Assembly: GCF_036850765.1 (NCBI RefSeq)
Contig: NC_089495.1
Coordinates: 28,736,875-28,800,874 of the forward strand
Source of the DNA: Saccopteryx bilineata
Taxonomy: Eukaryota > Chordata > Mammalia > Chiroptera > Emballonuridae
Direction: 5' to 3'
Length of the DNA: 64,000 bases
In this document: positions 3,271-59,170 of the stretch, piece after piece
Layout of the letters: the number at the start of each line of letters is the position of its first letter
How positions within the stretch are numbered: position 1 is the stretch's first letter
Position numbers and translations under genes: made by a program
Notes under the pieces: generated by a model
Told to the model about the DNA's origin: nothing
Databases searched by the model: none
What the model saw: only the letters and a program-made list of their open reading frames with translations

Positions 3271-3650
3271 TGGCCCTGGCTGGTTAGCTCAGCGGTAGAG
3301 CGTCGGCCTGGCGTGCAGAAGTCCCAGGTTCGATCCCCGGCCAGGGCACACAGGAGAGGTGCCCATTTGCTTCTCCACCCCTCCCCCTCTCCTTCTTCTC
3401 TGTCTCTCTCTTCCCCTCCCGCAGCGAGGCTCCATTGGAGCAAAGATGGCCCGGGCGCTGGGGATGGCTCTGTGGCCTCTGCCTCAGGCGCTAGAGTGGC
3501 TCTGGATGCAACAGAGTGATGCCCCAGAGGGGCAAAGCATCGCCCCCTGGTGGGCATGCCAGGTGGATCCCAGTCAGGCGCATGCGGGAGTCTATCTGAC
3601 TGCCTCCCCGTTTCCAGCTTCGGAAAAATGAAAAAAAAAAAAAAAAAAGA
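3271..3650 (+). repeat. tRNA-derived bat SINE (long type) with target duplication
   Basis: The head 'ggccctggctggttagctca' carries intact pol III A-box (tagctcagcggtagagcg) and B-box (ggttcgatccc) motifs. It is followed by the C/T-rich body, the 'tccattggagcaaagatgg' block, and an oligo(A) tail at about 3,628-3,648. A roughly 12-bp direct repeat (aagatgtgataa) flanks it at about 3,259-3,270 and 3,648-3,658, so the insertion boundaries are secure. Little decay suggests a relatively young copy. Confidence 0.92.
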
Positions 3651-20465: not shown

Positions 20466-20714
20466 CCTTATATCTTAGCGTGTCTCCCAAGAGGTTATAA
20501 TTTGATGGACATCCCCTCAATTTATAGAATGTAAATGAAATCCCATGTTAAACAGTACTTTCAGGGATCTTATGAAACACCTGGATTTTAACCTTGTCTT
20601 TCCAGAGATTAGATGGAAAAGTCTCTGAATTCTTGTTTTTTTTCCCTCACTTATGATACTTGATAAGAACATATGTAAAGCCAGTATACAGGGCCACCAT
20701 CACAGCCACCTGGC

Positions 20715-21239
20715 TGTAAGGCCAGGAGCCGTCATCGTGACCATTCACATGCAGGTTCCCATTGGATTCGGGCAGGCGATAAAGAAATGGCGGAGTCAGA
20801 GGATGGGGGGCCATCCTATTTATTGGTGTCTCACCAAGACAGGCAAACCACAAAAGAAGACAAGGGAAAAGCAGAAAACCAGCTCTTCCCATGAAGGGCA
20901 AGGGATCAGGGGAGCCCCTGCAATTGTGATAGCAGGAACTGTGTGTCTGAGCTCCTGGTCTGTCCCACTTTATAGTGTAGAAAACCAAAATCCCTTAATC
21001 CAATATACAAACAAGGAAGTCTCCGATACAAAGTCACTTATCCAAGGCATAATTGGATTCCTCATGAGAGTGCACCACCCAGATCATACAATCAGTCAAG
21101 GGTGTGGGGAAAAGCTTAGTCCCAAAACCAAACCTCAGGCTACAACAACCTGGCCTGCTTATAGCCTGTCCCCCACACCCATTATAAGTCACAAGCGAGC
21201 AAACATATATATCATGTTTACAAACTTATTTGACCAACA
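20715..21239 (-). repeat. 3' LTR of the young provirus
   Basis: 525 bp, minus strand TGTTGGTC...CCTTACA. Contains a TATA box (tataaag, about 20,969-20,975) and an AATAAA poly(A) signal (20,819-20,824), placing U3 at the right-hand end. In this copy the reading frame from an ATG upstream of the poly(A) signal runs uninterrupted to the LTR end, unlike the 5' LTR, which has one extra G. Confidence 0.95.
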
Positions 21240-21252
21240 TTCCACCCCTTTT
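21240..21252 (-). promoter_or_regulatory. Polypurine tract of the provirus
   Basis: Minus-strand aaaaggggtggaa directly abuts the TG of the 3' LTR, the expected plus-strand primer position for retroviral DNA synthesis. Confidence 0.85.
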
Positions 21253-21370
21253 GCTCGCTTTACAATCTAAACCACAGGCATCTTCCATGATGGTCACTGT
21301 GCAAAGAGTAGGATACATTGCATAAACAGAAATAGTACCAACTACAGCAATAGGATTAACAGATCAAAAA

Positions 21371-22426
21371 CTATGGGCGAAATGAGAGAGCTGTCAGTGG
21401 CACCAAGAGAGGCAAATCTTTTCCCTCTGGCAGAATACAGGCCAGAGTTTTATCTGCAGACAGCACTGTAGCTGGCACCAGAGGCCGCCCTGAGCGGGAG
21501 TACCAAACCTTATTGGCCAATACACCAGCATCTGCTGGTTCTATGTGTAGTAAAATAGGGGAACTCATTATTGGCCATAAAGAGATTACAAAGGTGCCCT
21601 TCAAAATGCTGTCCCCTTGAGCACTCAAGGGATAATACACTTCTACCTTAGGTGGCCAGGTGCTGGTTACCCAAGGAGTTAACTGGAGGTTCACCTCTAA
21701 CCCCTTTCCCCATGGTGCCAACAAGGCCACCCATCTCAGATGGGGGGCCTGTACAGTCCAGGGCCAAGTCCATTGAAGCCGTTGTCCTTTAAGAAGGGCT
21801 GTTGGAGCAGGCAAGAGCACGTTGCCCTGCTGTCCGAAACCTGGCTTGAGTAAAATGTCCTTGGTGCGTATCTGCAACTGAATAGGGGCAGCTGTCCGAT
21901 GCAGGAGGGCCTCTACTGGAGCTGGGCTTCCCCGTCGAGGTCGCTCATTCAAAATCCGAAGTACTGTCCATAAGCGGCGTGTCCATCCAGTAAGAGAGCC
22001 GGTGCCCCCCTCCTGTCGCAGTCCCTGCTTTAAGAGTCCATTATAACGCTCAATGATGCCAGCAGCCTGGGGGTGGTAGGGAACATGGTACTTCCAGTCC
22101 ACCCCCAGCTTTTGAGCCCATTGCCTTACCGTTGAACCAGTGAAGTGGGTACCATTGTCACTTTCAAGGACCAGTGGTCGCCCGTATGCAGCACTCAGGC
22201 GGTCCAGAGCCTGTATGACTGCCCTCTGGTCAGGGTTACGAGCGAGGTAAGCAGCAAGCAGCCCGGTGGCAGTATCTACACAAGTGACTGCATACTGGTA
22301 CCCTTCTGACTTTGGTAAGGGTCCAATGATGTCTATCTGCCATCGTGTCAGTGGACATGACCCCTCTGGATCTGTCCAGGTGACACCAGTGGTCTCCGAG
22401 GGTGTTCCTTGGAACATACTGCACAT
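21371..22426 (-). CDS. pol: Integrase core and C-terminal domains (frame-shifted part of pol)
   Basis: Joins viral DNA to the host genome. The DDE triad is complete: WQIDIIG (Asp 32), ESDNGTHF (Asp 90) and GIIERYNG (Glu 126), with exactly 35 residues between the second Asp and Glu. After the core come about 225 residues ending in a strand-rich, SH3-like-looking segment (VWYSRSGRPLVPATV...). No dUTPase motifs were found here, although HERV-L-type elements often carry one. This ORF overlaps the RT/RNase H ORF by 79 bases (22,348-22,426) in another frame. A 1-base indel in that overlap separates the HHCC finger from the core and would block a normal Pol. The start shown is only the first ATG of the open frame. 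Confidence 0.9.
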   Translation of the reverse strand: MCSMFQGTPSETTGVTWTDPEGSCPLTRWQIDIIGPLPKSEGYQYAVTCVDTATGLLAAYLARNPDQRAVIQALDRLSAAYGRPLVLESDNGTHFTGSTVRQWAQKLGVDWKYHVPYHPQAAGIIERYNGLLKQGLRQEGGTGSLTGWTRRLWTVLRILNERPRRGSPAPVEALLHRTAAPIQLQIRTKDILLKPGFGQQGNVLLPAPTALLKGQRLQWTWPWTVQAPHLRWVALLAPWGKGLEVNLQLTPWVTSTWPPKVEVYYPLSAQGDSILKGTFVISLWPIMSSPILLHIEPADAGVLANKVWYSRSGRPLVPATVLSADKTLACILPEGKDLPLLVPLTALSFRP

Positions 22427-24447
22427 TGCTCACAGGCTGCAAGTACCTCTGCATAGGACACAGGCAAGTTCCAAGCCTTAACTGTAGCCCACATAGTTTT
22501 CTGTCCTGCATGGAGCAGGCGCCGGTGGAGCCACTGTGCCACATCACCTGCAGGTGCAGTCTCCAACCATCGCACCCTTGCCAACGTATCTGCCTCATCA
22601 TTCCCAGGATGGGCTAGAGGGGCATGCCCTGTGACATGATATACTGTCACCTGCTTCTGGTGTCCTATTTCCCATAAGTCCTGCCACATGGCCTGACCCC
22701 ATAATGGACGGTGCATTACCATCCACTGGTTAATGTGCCAAGTAGCAATCCAAAGGGTCAGTCCACGATAGACAGCCCAACTGTCAGTACAGATCACCAG
22801 AGGTGAAGGTTCATTATGGGCAACTAGCCAAATAACTCTTAATTCTGCCCATTGGCTGCTTTGGCCTGTACCCGTGTCCATCCAAATAGTCTCAGTGGCC
22901 GGATGGAAGGCGATAGCCGTCCATTTGGTAGGTTGGCCCCTGCTGGAACCATCAGTATACCAGGCATCTTCGGGGATGGGCACCCGCCCCTCCTGGTAAG
23001 GACTGACCTCAGGTTCTGCCTCCTGAGCCCCAGTTGCACCTGACTCTAAGGTCGCATAGGTGACTGGACCCAAGACCTCCTGCAGTTCTGCCCTCAATGG
23101 GCTGGTGCTAAGAGCACAGCGTTGTTGCAGATAGGCACCCCACTTGGCCAGGGTAGACATTTGGGCCATACCACTACGTGGTTTAGTTGCCCAATCTCTC
23201 ACCCATCCAGCTATAGGGTATGTTTTGACTGTAACTGGTGTTGTGGTTGTAATACTCTCAGTTGCCAGGAGGGCAGCATACACAGCTGCCAGCTGCTTCT
23301 CTACTAATGAGTAACGAACTTCAGCACCTTTCCACAATTGAGACCAAAATCCAATAGGTTGCCGTAGGCGCTCTGTCTGCTGCCACAAGCCCCATCCAAA
23401 CCCCTCCGAGGTTACATGAACATCCAGCTCACAGGGCCTGGCAGGATCAAACACATTCAAGGCCTGTGCCACCTTGACAGCTCTCTTAGCAGCTGAAAAT
23501 GAACCTTGCGCCTGCTCAGTCCAGTCCCAGCGAACCCCCTTTCGAATAAGGTTGTACAAGGGGCGTAGTAACTGAGCCAAATGCGGTATAAATGCTCGCC
23601 AATACCCCAACAAACCTAAGAATTCCTGTAACTGTTTTACCGTAGTGGGCTCGGGGTATGCTTGAATCTTATCTATAACTGCGTCAGGGATAACTTTTGT
23701 CTTACACGACCAGACAACTCCCAAGAATTTAACAGATAACCCAGGTCCTTGTAATTTGTTCTTGTTAACTGCCCAGCCACATGCTTTCAAATGGGATAGC
23801 AGGGTAGGGACTGCTTGCTCCAATTCTGAAAGAGAATCACTAGTTAGCATAATATCATCAATATAATGGTACATGCGGACTACCTCTGGCTGTTTCCATT
23901 TAGCCAGGTCAGCAGCCACCAGCCCATGGCACAAGGTGGGGCTATGCAAATAGCCCTGGGGTAACACTGTAAAGGTCCATTGTCTCCCTTCCCAACTGAA
24001 GGCAAATTGGTCTTGACTCTCTGCGGCTATATCAATAGAGAAAAAAGCATTGGCCAAGTCTGCCACAAAGTGGTATGTCCCCAACTCATGGCTTAGCCAA
24101 TCCATCATGTTAGCTATCGAGGGAACAGCAGCGTGCAAAGGGGGAACAACTTTATTAAGTTCCCTGTAATCTACTGTCATTCTCCAGGTTCCATCCGCTT
24201 TGCGCACGGGCCATACTGGGGAGTTGTAAGGACTGTGTGCTGGCCGGATGATCCCCACCTTTTCTAGTTCAAGGATTGTCCCTGTGACTTCTTCATAACC
24301 ACCTGGCAGGCGGTACTGCTTGGTGTTAGTCACACGCCGAGGGATGGGTAATTGCAAAGGGGAATGTGATGCATGTCCACGCAATACTGCCTTCACAACC
24401 CTGATCCGCAGCCGGAACTCCCCAGCTTTAGTTTCCAACCACAGTCC
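22348..24447 (-). CDS. pol: Reverse transcriptase / RNase H (plus integrase HHCC finger)
   Basis: Copies viral RNA into DNA and degrades the RNA strand. The frame is the same as gag and protease but has no ATG at the front; the first in-frame codons follow the UAA directly, so it could be made only by read-through. Numbering from 24,438: RT palm Asp at about 127 (VADLANAFFSID), the catalytic YIDD box at 192-195, and the thumb/connection to about 480. RNase H follows with YTDGS (Asp 496), WAEL (Glu 532), TDSWA (Asp 552) and NDEAD (Asp 614/617), all four acidic residues present. The integrase zinc finger His-x4-His...Cys-x2-Cys lies at about 637-675. The frame then stops at 22,348, with integrase continuing in a different frame. 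Confidence 0.93.
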   Translation of the reverse strand, partial: GLWLETKAGEFRLRIRVVKAVLRGHASHSPLQLPIPRRVTNTKQYRLPGGYEEVTGTILELEKVGIIRPAHSPYNSPVWPVRKADGTWRMTVDYRELNKVVPPLHAAVPSIANMMDWLSHELGTYHFVADLANAFFSIDIAAESQDQFAFSWEGRQWTFTVLPQGYLHSPTLCHGLVAADLAKWKQPEVVRMYHYIDDIMLTSDSLSELEQAVPTLLSHLKACGWAVNKNKLQGPGLSVKFLGVVWSCKTKVIPDAVIDKIQAYPEPTTVKQLQEFLGLLGYWRAFIPHLAQLLRPLYNLIRKGVRWDWTEQAQGSFSAAKRAVKVAQALNVFDPARPCELDVHVTSEGFGWGLWQQTERLRQPIGFWSQLWKGAEVRYSLVEKQLAAVYAALLATESITTTTPVTVKTYPIAGWVRDWATKPRSGMAQMSTLAKWGAYLQQRCALSTSPLRAELQEVLGPVTYATLESGATGAQEAEPEVSPYQEGRVPIPEDAWYTDGSSRGQPTKWTAIAFHPATETIWMDTGTGQSSQWAELRVIWLVAHNEPSPLVICTDSWAVYRGLTLWIATWHINQWMVMHRPLWGQAMWQDLWEIGHQKQVTVYHVTGHAPLAHPGNDEADTLARVRWLETAPAGDVAQWLHRRLLHAGQKTMWATVKAWNLPVSYAEVLAACEQCAVCSKEHPRRPLVSPGQIQRGHVH

Positions 24448-24762
24448 TTACAAGACATCTACCCCCAAAATATATTCAGGAATAGGAGATACATACACCT
24501 TATATGGCTTAGGAGGCAGTCTCCCTATCCCCAATGGAATAGTTATTGGCTTCACTTGGACAGTTTGGCCCCCATAACCGTCAATGGCCACTGGGGTCCC
24601 AGCAAACCACTCTGGGTTTCCATAGAGAAGGGAACATTCTGCACCTGTATCCACCAAGGCCAACACCTGTTGTACGTTGGAAGGGGACCAGTGGATAGCC
24701 AGTTCCACATGTGGCCTCCGGTCCCCGCCCATCCCCGTTAGACGGGTCCCTCGGCCTTTTAC
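24448..24762 (-). CDS. pro: Retroviral aspartic protease, in frame downstream of the gag UAG
   Basis: Cleaves Gag and Pol precursors during maturation. About 104 codons follow the gag amber codon in the same frame, implying expression as a read-through fusion; an internal ATG exists at 24,732. The active-site loop ALVDTGAECS supplies the catalytic Asp, and the closing ILGVDVL is the conserved C-terminal strand/helix of retropepsins. The flap region is a Gly-rich GYGG segment. It ends in UAA at 24,448-24,450, immediately before RT in the same frame. In related viruses protease and RT are continuous, so this UAA is probably a disabling point mutation of this copy. Confidence 0.88.
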   Translation of the reverse strand, partial: VKGRGTRLTGMGGDRRPHVELAIHWSPSNVQQVLALVDTGAECSLLYGNPEWFAGTPVAIDGYGGQTVQVKPITIPLGIGRLPPKPYKVYVSPIPEYILGVDVL

Positions 24763-26175
24763 CTATTCAAACTGGTACAATGGGTCTTGGGAGTTCCCCT
24801 CTCCCTCGGCTGTCTCTATCATATAATCTTGTAACCGAGCTGTGCGCGCACCAAACGTTTTATTGGTAGCTGCTGGGGCCTTTCGTCTCAGTGGCTGGAA
24901 CTTCTGTTCTGGTTTAAGCTGCCGCCAAAGCTCCAAAAGAATTTTATTAGACTGGCCATCCAATTTCCCCTTATCTGCTCCAGCCGCAATCAAGTCTACC
25001 CACATCTGCGTTCGGGTAACCTTTACAGGCCCGTTTCCCTTGTTAGTTGGGGGGGAAACATAGGCAGCAGCCCTCACTGCTTTATGATCCCGAGCGGCCT
25101 CCAGCTCTCCCAAATCTGCTACCATCTGTGTAACTGCATTGATGGGCTGCCCCACATAGGGGCCCAAGATAGCCACAAGTGACCCAAAAAGGGCTGACGG
25201 GGCGCTAGCAAGGACAAATTCCCTCATTTTGGCCGTAAACACTTCTTCATCTGGCCCACGAGACCCAGGGTTGAAAACAGCATTCTTCATACCTAGTTCT
25301 CGAAGGACCTTTACTAACTCACTGTAGCACTGCCACCGACTCATTGCCCCCGGCAGTTCTCCAGCATTCTGCCAGACCATATGAATGGCAGCCATCACCC
25401 ATTCTAATAGGGTATGGTCTCCTGGGTTGCCATGGCAGTTCTGAAGACGCTGCCTCAAGGAAGAGTGTGTGGTAATGGCGGCCAATTTCTCCATCTCTGT
25501 TCCGGAGAGCATGATGCCATCCACCCCTATATCCCATAATCGTAGTAACCAGGCTACCAGGGATTCAGTAGGTTTCTGCCTAAATTGTGCCCCCAACTCC
25601 ATCAGCTCTGCCTGGGTATAGGGCCAGACCACAGAGTGTTCCATTACCTGGGCAGGAGGCTGTGGCTGCCCCTGAGGGACTCTTTGTTGCTGGGTTTTTA
25701 CCTTCTTGGCGACAACTGGTCGGGCTCTCAGTGTGCGTATGGCAGTTTCAGCCTGAGCCTTCTCATCCTCAGAAGAGGAGTCGCAAGCGCCTGCTCCCGC
25801 TGACTCAAAGCCAATCCACCAGCACGGATGCTGCTGCTCCTTTGGTGACCGTTTAGGCTCCTGTGGCTGCTGGCTTTTGGCCAGAAGCTGAGACTCGAGC
25901 TCTTGAATCCGGAGTTGTTTCTCCAACAACTGCCGGTGAAGACGTTCAGCTTCCAGGGTAAACTGCAACTCTCGAACCCGTAATTCCTTCTCCATTGCTC
26001 GCTCCAGTTCCAGCCTTTTCTGCCGTTCTGTTTGCAATTCATGCTGAAGCTTTTGACCTCGGGCAGTTTCCTCTTGAGTAAAAAACATGTAGCCCATGGC
26101 CCCTAAAAGGACAGCCATGGGGAGCCAGAGCAGCAACCAGTACTCTATCCCACCCATCAAGGGTGGTGGCTCCAT
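24763..26175 (-). CDS. gag: Gag polyprotein of the young ERV-L/S-like provirus
   Basis: A 470-residue structural polyprotein that should assemble the particle core. The first ATG of the frame after the primer site is at 26,175-26,173; the frame is also open upstream across the primer site into the LTR, so a longer product is possible. Residues 12-32 form a hydrophobic, membrane-spanning-type segment. Residues about 35-105 are a Gln/Glu/Arg/Leu-rich coiled coil, and about 110-180 is a low-complexity linker. From about 183 to 395 lies a capsid-like region with the ERV-L/Fv1-type motif 'FRQKPTESLVAWLLRLWD'. No CCHC zinc knuckle is present, and there is no obvious N-myristoylation Gly. It ends in an in-frame UAG (24,763-24,765) followed by protease in the same frame. 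The ORF itself is intact. Confidence 0.92.
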   Translation of the reverse strand: MEPPPLMGGIEYWLLLWLPMAVLLGAMGYMFFTQEETARGQKLQHELQTERQKRLELERAMEKELRVRELQFTLEAERLHRQLLEKQLRIQELESQLLAKSQQPQEPKRSPKEQQHPCWWIGFESAGAGACDSSSEDEKAQAETAIRTLRARPVVAKKVKTQQQRVPQGQPQPPAQVMEHSVVWPYTQAELMELGAQFRQKPTESLVAWLLRLWDIGVDGIMLSGTEMEKLAAITTHSSLRQRLQNCHGNPGDHTLLEWVMAAIHMVWQNAGELPGAMSRWQCYSELVKVLRELGMKNAVFNPGSRGPDEEVFTAKMREFVLASAPSALFGSLVAILGPYVGQPINAVTQMVADLGELEAARDHKAVRAAAYVSPPTNKGNGPVKVTRTQMWVDLIAAGADKGKLDGQSNKILLELWRQLKPEQKFQPLRRKAPAATNKTFGARTARLQDYMIETAEGEGNSQDPLYQFE

Positions 26176-26185
26176 ACCAATCTCT

Positions 26186-26205
26186 GAATCCTGCCGACTA
26201 CGCCA
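26186..26205 (-). promoter_or_regulatory. Primer-binding site, tRNA-Ser(AGA) type
   Basis: Starts two bases after the 5' LTR. The plus-strand text gaatcctgccgactacgcca equals the last 17 bases of a mammalian tRNA-Ser(AGA) acceptor/T-arm side plus CCA, so 20 nt can pair. The tRNA sequence is recalled, not searched. HERV-L uses Leu, whereas the HERV-S (ERV18) group is known for a Ser primer, which supports the ERV-S-like placement. Confidence 0.85.
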
Positions 26206-26207
26206 GT

Positions 26208-26733
26208 TGTAAGGCCAGGAGCCGTCATCGTGACCATTCACATGCAGGTTCCCATTGGATTCGGGCAGGCGATAAAGAAATGGCGGAGTCAGAGGGATGG
26301 GGGGCCATCCTATTTATTGGTGTCTCACCAAGACAGGCAAACCACAAAAGAAGACAAGGGAAAAGCAGAAAACCAGCTCTTCCCATGAAGGGCAAGGGAT
26401 CAGGGGAGCCCCTGCAATTGTGATAGCAGGAACTGTGTGTCTGAGCTCCTGGTCTGTCCCACTTTATAGTGTAGAAAACCAAAATCCCTTAATCCAATAT
26501 ACAAACAAGGAAGTCTCCAATACAAAGTCACTTATCCAAGGCATAATTGGATTCCTCATGAGAGTGCACCACCCAGATCATACAATCAGTCAAGGGTGTG
26601 GGGAAAAGCTTAGTCCCAAAACCAAACCTCAGGCTACAACAACCTGGCCTGCTTATAGCCTGTCCCCCACACTCATTATAAGTCACAAGCGAGCAAACAT
26701 ATATATCATGTTTACAAACTTATTTGACCAACA
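26208..26733 (-). repeat. 5' LTR of the young provirus
   Basis: 526 bp, almost identical to the 3' LTR. TATA box at about 26,463-26,469 and poly(A) hexamer at 26,313-26,318, so transcription should start near 26,435 and run leftwards. Differences from the 3' LTR are one extra G in the run at about 26,295, an A for G near 26,519 (a CpG decay position) and a C/T transition near 26,673. Confidence 0.95.
26463..26469 (-). promoter_or_regulatory. TATA box of the proviral 5' LTR
   Basis: Minus-strand tataaag in the context acactataaagtggg, about 260 bp from the U3 start, conserved in the 3' LTR and in the solo LTR at 49,946 (ctataaagtgggg). This is the expected core promoter for the provirus. Confidence 0.75.
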
Positions 26734-27408
26734 CTGGCCCATGCAGGTTTGCATTGGATTAGGACAGTCAGTAAAGAAACAATGGAGCCAAAAACTGGTG
26801 GGCCATCATCTTTAATCCTAGCTTGCACTCGGTAGGCAAGTAAAAACACACACTGGGCTCCAAAACCCACTCACGTTCAGTGCTCACAAAGCTACTGACT
26901 TATCCAAGTTTCCTAGGATCAAAGGTTTCTAGCTCACCAGACTTATTTACCTCTGTTCCCCATCTCTTTCCTTCTCCCTGCACAAACTCTGCACAAACTG
27001 GCTTCTCACTCAACACTCCAACATCTTGGCTACTTCTCCAGGCCTCCTCCACATAGCCTTTCTCTGCTCTCCTCTCTAATGCTAATCTAAGGAACCAAGA
27101 GAGAGCAAGCTCCCGTTCTGCCCCCATTTTATAGTTAGTGTAGAAATCAAAACCTTTAATCCAATATACAAAATAGGGAAGTCTCTAATACAAAGTCACT
27201 TATCTGGGGCATGATGAGATTGCACCACCCCTCATCAAAAAGGGTGGGAAAGGCTTAGTCCTAAAACCAAGCCCCAGGATACAAGGATCCTGCCTGCCCA
27301 CAGCTTGCCCCCAACACACATTAATATCACCTGGGCAACAGGCTCCCATGTGGGCAGCACCATCTTTAACAAAGTGAGCATAATATATTTTATGTGCCCA
27401 ACAACATA

Positions 27409-58795: not shown

Positions 58796-58799
58796 CTCG

Positions 58800-59170
58800 G
58801 CCCTGGCCGGTTGGCTCAGTGGTAGAGCGTCAGCCTGGCGTGCAGGAGTCCTGGGTTTGATTCCCAGCCAGGGCACACAGGAGAAGCACCCATCTGCTTC
58901 TCCACCCCTCCACCTCTCCTTCCTCTTTGTCTCTCTCTTCCCCTCCCACAGCCAAGGCTCCATTGGAGCAAAGTTGGCCAGGGCACTGAGGATGGCTCTG
59001 TGGCCTCTCCCTCAGGTGCTAGAATGGCTCTGGTTGCAACGAAGCAATGCCCCAGGTGGGCAGAGCATCGCCCCCTGGTGGGCATGCCGTGGATCCTGGT
59101 CGGGTGCATGCAGGAATTTGTCTGCATGCACTGCCTCCCCATTTCCAACTTCAGAAAAATACAAAAAAAA
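58800..59170 (+). repeat. tRNA-derived bat SINE (long type)
   Basis: 'ggccctggccggttggctca' head, intact A and B boxes, full body, A-rich tail to about 59,203. A 14-bp flank with one mismatch (aaaacacgggtctc / aaaaacgcgggtctc) marks the insertion. The 178-codon ORF across it is not a gene. Confidence 0.94.

Follow-up and report, generated by a model that had tools for sequence, protein, structure and literature searches.

We analyzed a 64,000-nucleotide stretch of the genome of the emballonurid bat Saccopteryx bilineata (assembly GCF_036850765.1, contig NC_089495.1, positions 28,736,875 to 28,800,874 of the forward strand; hereafter the window), whose minus strand carries a provirus flanked by long terminal repeats (LTRs). 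This provirus is very probably a young, env-less class III endogenous retrovirus (ERV) of ERV-S-like type, a defective copy of a family that was bursting in the emballonurid germ line about 1 million years (My) ago. Read along the minus strand, it opens with a 5' LTR of 526 bp (26208-26733), followed by: (i) the primer binding site (PBS; 26188-26205), an 18-nt complement to the 3' end of tRNA-Ser; (ii) gag (24763-26175; 470 aa, ending in UAG); (iii) a 104-aa open frame for protease, in the gag frame and ending in TAA (24448-24762); (iv) a 699-aa open frame for reverse transcriptase (RT), RNase H and the zinc-finger part of integrase, the latter recognized by eye only (22348-24447); (v) a 352-aa open frame for the integrase core and C-terminal part, in a different frame from RT (21371-22429); and (vi) a polypurine tract, named by its position and purine run (21240-21252), which adjoins the 525 bp 3' LTR (20715-21239). 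Exact pairwise alignment, from which both LTRs were delimited, places the pair two transitions and one single-base indel apart over 525 bp, in agreement with the first-pass annotation of this DNA. The perfect 5-bp target duplication reported there is likewise present in the flanks, as CTGGC at 20710-20714 and 26734-26738. The LTRs have TG...CA ends, and neither these nor the 5-bp duplication are specific to class III.

Once the flanks are joined with a single CTGGC copy, they align continuously with an older LTR near 50 kb of the window (88% over 524 columns), which means that the insertion split a related LTR already in place. Comparison with this empty site assigns the left piece of the target LTR to 20674-20714 and the right piece to 26739-27221, both on the minus strand. 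Older stretches matching parts of the young LTR occur near 50 kb (83.2% identity), near 35 kb (81.6%) and near 27.1 kb (72.6%), the last of these being the insertion target itself.

The coding region begins at the first ATG, 32 nt past the LTR, where gag starts. Gag, protease and RT share one frame, interrupted by UAG and then UAA, and integrase lies in another frame with an 82-nt overlap. Pfam identified RT, RNase H and the integrase core clearly and protease marginally (21 bits against a cut-off of 20.7). The claim that all five components keep their catalytic residues holds for protease (DTG), RT (YIDD) and integrase (D33/D91/E127, the D,D-35-E triad), all read from the translations, and for RNase H, assessed through its Pfam match only; it does not extend to gag, to which the notion is inapplicable and which had no Pfam match. 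Two lesions are present in pol: a TAA at 24448-24450, on the protease/RT boundary, and a frame change between 22429 and 22348, ahead of the integrase core. With these lesions, the window copy cannot make a single Pol polyprotein. No env was found in this copy, in which only 131 bp separate the integrase stop from the 3' LTR, leaving no room for such a gene.

Among 7999 candidates scored, gag has relatives at E <= 0.001 in two proteins of Rhinolophus ferrumequinum (45% identity over 69% of the length and 49% over 49%). Its N-terminus is hydrophobic (hydropathy 1.96 at residue 14) and runs into a predicted helix that extends up to residue 101, beyond which the structure prediction has low confidence (mean predicted local distance difference test score 52.2). 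It should be noted that a second hydrophobic stretch at residue 320 scores almost equally (hydropathy 1.90), so that the N-terminal stretch is a putative membrane anchor. Gag carries no Gly at position 2, and a simple pattern search of it found no CCHC motif.

Our genome searches covered one assembly (2.61 Gb, 256 contigs). In the RT search, 64 of 8091 first-look candidates were scored, the window copy included, and all 64 show 97-100% identity across 697 or more of the 699 residues. The RT stretch is free of stops in 50 of them, and in 21 a frame of 1131 aa without stops could span protease to integrase. Among 17 gag pieces taken from other siblings, which average 96.7% identity to the gag of the window copy (lowest 78.3%), 5 stay open as far as the UAG; open single gag or pol frames are present elsewhere in the genome. 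We also read the gag-protease-RT junctions of the first 20 of the 63 siblings, ranked by RT score. The gag UAG is kept in all 20, with the protease open beyond it in 18, a pattern which suggests that this codon may be read through to give Gag-Pol, although the siblings are about 98% alike and common descent alone could preserve the UAG in all of them. None of these siblings has the protease/RT stop of the window copy. Since its pol carries both this TAA and a frame change, the earlier description of the window copy as nearly intact was too generous; probably it moved by means of proteins supplied by relatives, or lost pol function after landing.

The LTRs of the family were sampled by scoring 40 of 1954 candidates, the window 3' LTR among them. 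Each of the other 39 lies at most two positions from the window 3' LTR, and 13 of the 39 share one single difference from it, so that they are identical to one another over 525 bp. By their flanks, 23 of the 40 are solo LTRs, 17 of which have exact 5-bp duplications; the rest are 12 3' LTRs, including that of the window, and five 5' LTRs. Of the 16 proviruses other than that of the window, 15 yielded a partner LTR, which was complete or almost complete in 13. Of 20 proviruses taken from the RT list, 17 have full-length LTR pairs and three have cut ones; 13 of the 17 full pairs have matched target duplications and differ by 1-9 substitutions (mean 3.1).

The dating set consisted of 23 distinct target-matched pairs, 13 from the RT list and 10 from the LTR search, with the window left out; one pair (L005) had lost an LTR end and was accepted as matched once this was taken into account. 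These pairs differ by a mean of 3.09/525 with a dispersion of 1.23, a near-Poisson spread that suits a single burst. None of the 23 is identical; with such a mean, chance alone would produce about 1.05 identical pairs, so that their absence does not establish that the family has stopped moving. If substitutions accumulate at 1.5-4.5e-9 per site per year, the mean gives a family age of 0.65-1.96 My; an assumed rate of 2.2e-9 dates the window pair to 0.87 My (0.10-3.13 My). The first-pass annotation had proposed a recent insertion of a lineage mobile in the recent past, and both proposals are borne out, the latter at about 0.65-2 My from the 23 target-matched pairs; the recency is firmer than a single LTR pair could show.

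An apparently young LTR pair might also arise if gene conversion or recombination had homogenized the LTRs of a much older insertion. Recombination among copies is indeed likely: four of the 17 full pairs have mismatched target duplications and differ by 2, 11, 17 and 22 substitutions, against the mean of 3.1 for matched pairs (Mann-Whitney p 0.051). These pairs (L081, L082, L085 and L086 with L101, L102, L105 and L106; proviruses 5, 6, 9 and 10), three of them highly diverged, indicate that provirus recombination is frequent enough to spoil naive LTR dating. At another locus (G000:C1:288026179-288034220; L035, L049, L034), two family LTRs in opposite orientation have exchanged their flanking 5-mers (ATGAC and ATTGT), which could reflect an inversion by recombination between inverted LTRs or an assembly join. 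The window RT is also more diverged than its LTR pair suggests. Against homogenization, the target duplications of the window provirus are matched, and neither the LTRs nor the RTs of the sampled family are deeply diverged (mean mutual difference among 20 RT copies, 15.9/2097), a family-wide shallowness that LTR homogenization cannot explain. We therefore regard an old insertion with homogenized LTRs as highly unlikely.

Several observations nevertheless weigh against a young, recently mobile family represented by a recently landed copy. The pol frame is not open throughout in 43 of the 64 scored copies, and 12 of the 17 sibling gags are interrupted or shifted. The sampled copies are those closest to the window, which biases both the intact-frame counts and the ages toward young, intact copies, and the substitution rates are assumed values rather than ones measured for this bat. 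Finally, the window RT differs from the 20 siblings by 23.2 on average, against 15.9 among the siblings themselves; it carries 12 changes at sites where all 20 agree and is one codon shorter. Because this divergence exceeds what the LTR pair predicts, either the LTRs underestimate the age or some of the divergence arose before the insertion. Probably some of the changes predate the insertion, as would be the case in a side branch of the family or in a defective template copied in trans.

The RT variants were also sorted into those shared between copies (8 synonymous and 3 nonsynonymous) and private ones (33 and 46, with 3 stops). The two classes differ with a Fisher p of 0.10; relative to neutral expectation, the shared variants depart with p 0.002-0.004, and the private ones also fall below neutral with p 0.004-0.017. 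We do not take selection on RT as proven, since the copies were chosen by protein similarity, which favors such counts.

The placement in class III, as ERV-S-like, agrees with the first-pass annotation and draws on the serine PBS, the absence of a recognizable dUTPase and a foamy-like integrase model. When an AlphaFold2 model of the integrase core was compared by Foldseek, ranks 1-8 were foamy virus integrase, with Rous sarcoma virus integrase from rank 9; the foamy matches cover the core only, at 27-35% identity and with target-normalized template modeling scores up to 0.83. The best Protein Data Bank entries for the RT frame, 7ksf and 7kse, are named by enzyme only, one of them as Peptidase A9, the foamy virus protease family, and murine-type RT entries come next. 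These predictions, mainly the integrase model, point to a pol nearest to the spuma, ERV-L and ERV-S lineages.

Within class III, the window provirus shares with ERV-S a serine tRNA PBS, which in most siblings carries three extra nt, and a pol with no recognizable dUTPase, and departs from it in lacking env, given the 131 bp after integrase. With ERV-L it shares the absence of env, and it lacks the dUTPase that follows the integrase core in that group. A true ERV-L, with a leucine or other PBS and a dUTPase, that has since degenerated could also be considered. A stretch of approximately 120 aa lies between the integrase core and the C-terminal part, at the position where the relatives P0006 and P0009 carry their dUTPase, and env is missing, as that origin would have it. 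In addition, PBS use is relatively unstable, with serine in 2 of 87 canonical chains of the human ERV-L family HERVL (PMC4724089), so that a serine PBS is weak evidence for ERV-S. On the other hand, a Pfam search reaching up to E = 5 returned no dUTPase for either P0002 or the integrase frame of the window, and a profile comparison with three dUTPase inserts gave a probability of 0.45%, in a partly co-linear register. The window copy also groups with mole and gamefowl relatives, away from dUTPase-bearing rows. Taken together, a degenerated ERV-L is quite unlikely, and we retain the ERV-S-like assignment.

The protein search with the RT frame returned 66 hits among 7995 scored, none of them a named ERV-S pol. 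The best were from the mole Talpa occidentalis (LOC129144682, P0001; 78% identity over 82% of the RT-RNase H frame), P0002 (64%), the pheasant Phasianus (P0003; 61%) and the prairie chicken Tympanuchus (P0004; 58%), and a protein of the bat Hipposideros reached 56% over 52%. In a pol tree built without class I or class II reference rows, the window and Talpa are sisters (98/97), followed by the Hipposideros row (93/90) and then the bird rows, and the dUTPase-bearing rows fall outside this group. P0002, P0003 and P0004, of which the latter two come from birds, form a separate clade (100/99). In P0002 a single frame encodes protease, RT, RNase H and integrase, and, as in the window element, no dUTPase is matched. 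The mole element belongs to another mammalian order and is known here from its pol protein alone.

The supported sister position of the mole pol, and its much higher identity than that of the Hipposideros protein, would suit a lineage that had recently invaded from outside, for example from another mammalian order, in place of a long resident that burst. However, the Hipposideros row is partial and has a very long branch, and the likeness to the mole needs no recent transfer. Moreover, the three older related LTRs in the window, 72.6-83.2% identical to the young LTR over their aligned parts, and an older ordinary-PBS clade that this genome harbors alongside the young one (see below) argue for long residence. 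We consider a recent outside invasion unlikely, and a resident lineage that burst the better account.

The PBS itself varies within the family. Of 129 exact LTR-PBS junctions genome-wide, 112 have a PBS three nt longer, the extra nt lying inside the tRNA-Ser match, and 17, including that of the window, have the ordinary serine PBS. A tree of 43 5' LTRs, from which the divergent L128 and the truncated L080 and L091 were dropped beforehand and in which three duplicates were not counted, separated an older clade of 8 ordinary-PBS copies from a young, star-like clade of 35 (supports 99/95), made up of 27 long-PBS copies with small variants and 8 ordinary-PBS copies, the window among them. At least 8 of the 17 ordinary-PBS junctions thus fall in the older clade. 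The PBS types are clustered on this tree: at least 6 changes are needed (bootstrap 5-7), and none of 500 shuffles gave a number as low (shuffle mean 13). The same count of at least 6 changes led us to reject the idea that PBS type marks a single clade. Well-supported branches force only one PBS change, which fits repeated reversion and retention alike.

In standard reverse transcription, copying of the primer tRNA should bring back the ordinary PBS in about half of new copies. This expected erasure is not seen in the ratio of 112 to 17, and for this reason priming or second-strand transfer may be unusual in this family. No tRNA gene ending in the longer 3' sequence turned up in a search of the host genome, although this search had no working positive control for the ordinary tRNA-Ser end. 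A more ambitious reading, namely that an ERV-S lineage without env is still live in a mammal other than a rodent, with the long PBS reflecting unusual priming, second-strand transfer or primer, is tentative and on the whole doubtful.

Under the favored reading of a young, env-less, ERV-S-like family, and by analogy with known retroviruses, transcription would start from the LTR, Gag might be anchored through the hydrophobic helix at its N-terminus and its long coiled coil, and readthrough of the UAG would yield Gag-Pol. Reverse transcription would be primed by tRNA-Ser, and an intracellular retrotransposition cycle without envelope would end in integration with a 5-bp stagger.

The burst of MuERV-L (MERVL) in the mouse is the usual example of a young class III element in mammals, and MuERV-L carries a dUTPase. 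As in the bat family, MuERV-L has no env, burst recently (in its case about 2 My ago), retains many copies with open gag and pol and makes a 5-bp duplication; unlike the bat family, it has a leucine PBS and a rodent host (PMC5930517). The first-pass annotation had named this mouse element as the only known young exception, which stands insofar as frogs are not mammals and falls insofar as XtERV-S of Xenopus tropicalis is recent, with identical LTRs (PMC8278194). XtERV-S is also class III, with a serine PBS and with gag and pol in one stop-split frame, and differs in having env, an extra pol frame, TGA as the stop and a frog host (PMC8278194). The Xenopus pol among our hits (P0005) is 42% identical and may not be XtERV-S.

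The serine PBS of HERVS is implied by its name. Likened by description, HERVS is a class III element with a pol without dUTPase, as in ERV-S generally (PMC4724089; PMC8278194), and differs from the window element in having a class I env (PMC4724089). Class III human ERVs are old, with LTRs that diverge by 13-42% (PMC4724089), compared to 0.4% in the window element.

Among open-licence titles and abstract beginnings, we found no report of a young class III ERV in bats, and one may exist elsewhere. The available part of a review of bat retroviruses (PMC8546640) contains no use of "class III", "ERV-L" or "ERVL", and it cites recent spumavirus integration in three vesper bats, so that young spuma-related insertions in bats are not new as such. 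After that of the mouse, the bat family would be the second one in class III that is young, env-less and high in copy number, and would offer an independent system for asking what lets such elements burst. It could also help to show how gag UAG readthrough and particles without envelope serve an intracellular cycle and how such elements fared against bat restriction factors, and its young age makes insertion polymorphism in living bats directly testable.

Elsewhere in the data, a scan of viral contigs with the RT frame gave three stretches that matched the pattern, none of them confirmed. Seven of the 18 open frames of at least 130 aa in the window were scanned for host genes and gave no Pfam matches. 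The window also contains several tRNA-derived short repeats of up to approximately 290 bp (3272-3425, 58799-59087 and others), two of which reach the Rfam tRNA threshold and which presumably resemble bat short interspersed elements. Among the best 120 of 7999 matches, a nuclear copy of cytochrome b, translated with the vertebrate mitochondrial code, is 95% identical to Saccopteryx bilineata, 90-91% to the emballonurid bats Centronycteris and Diclidurus and 89% to further bats such as Glossophaga; this supports the bat host proposed in the first-pass annotation, and, being a nuclear copy, is a guide to the species rather than proof of it. Finally, 31 listed cytochrome b matches on large contigs, most with an internal TGA and some of them pieces of one copy, are several nuclear mitochondrial copies.
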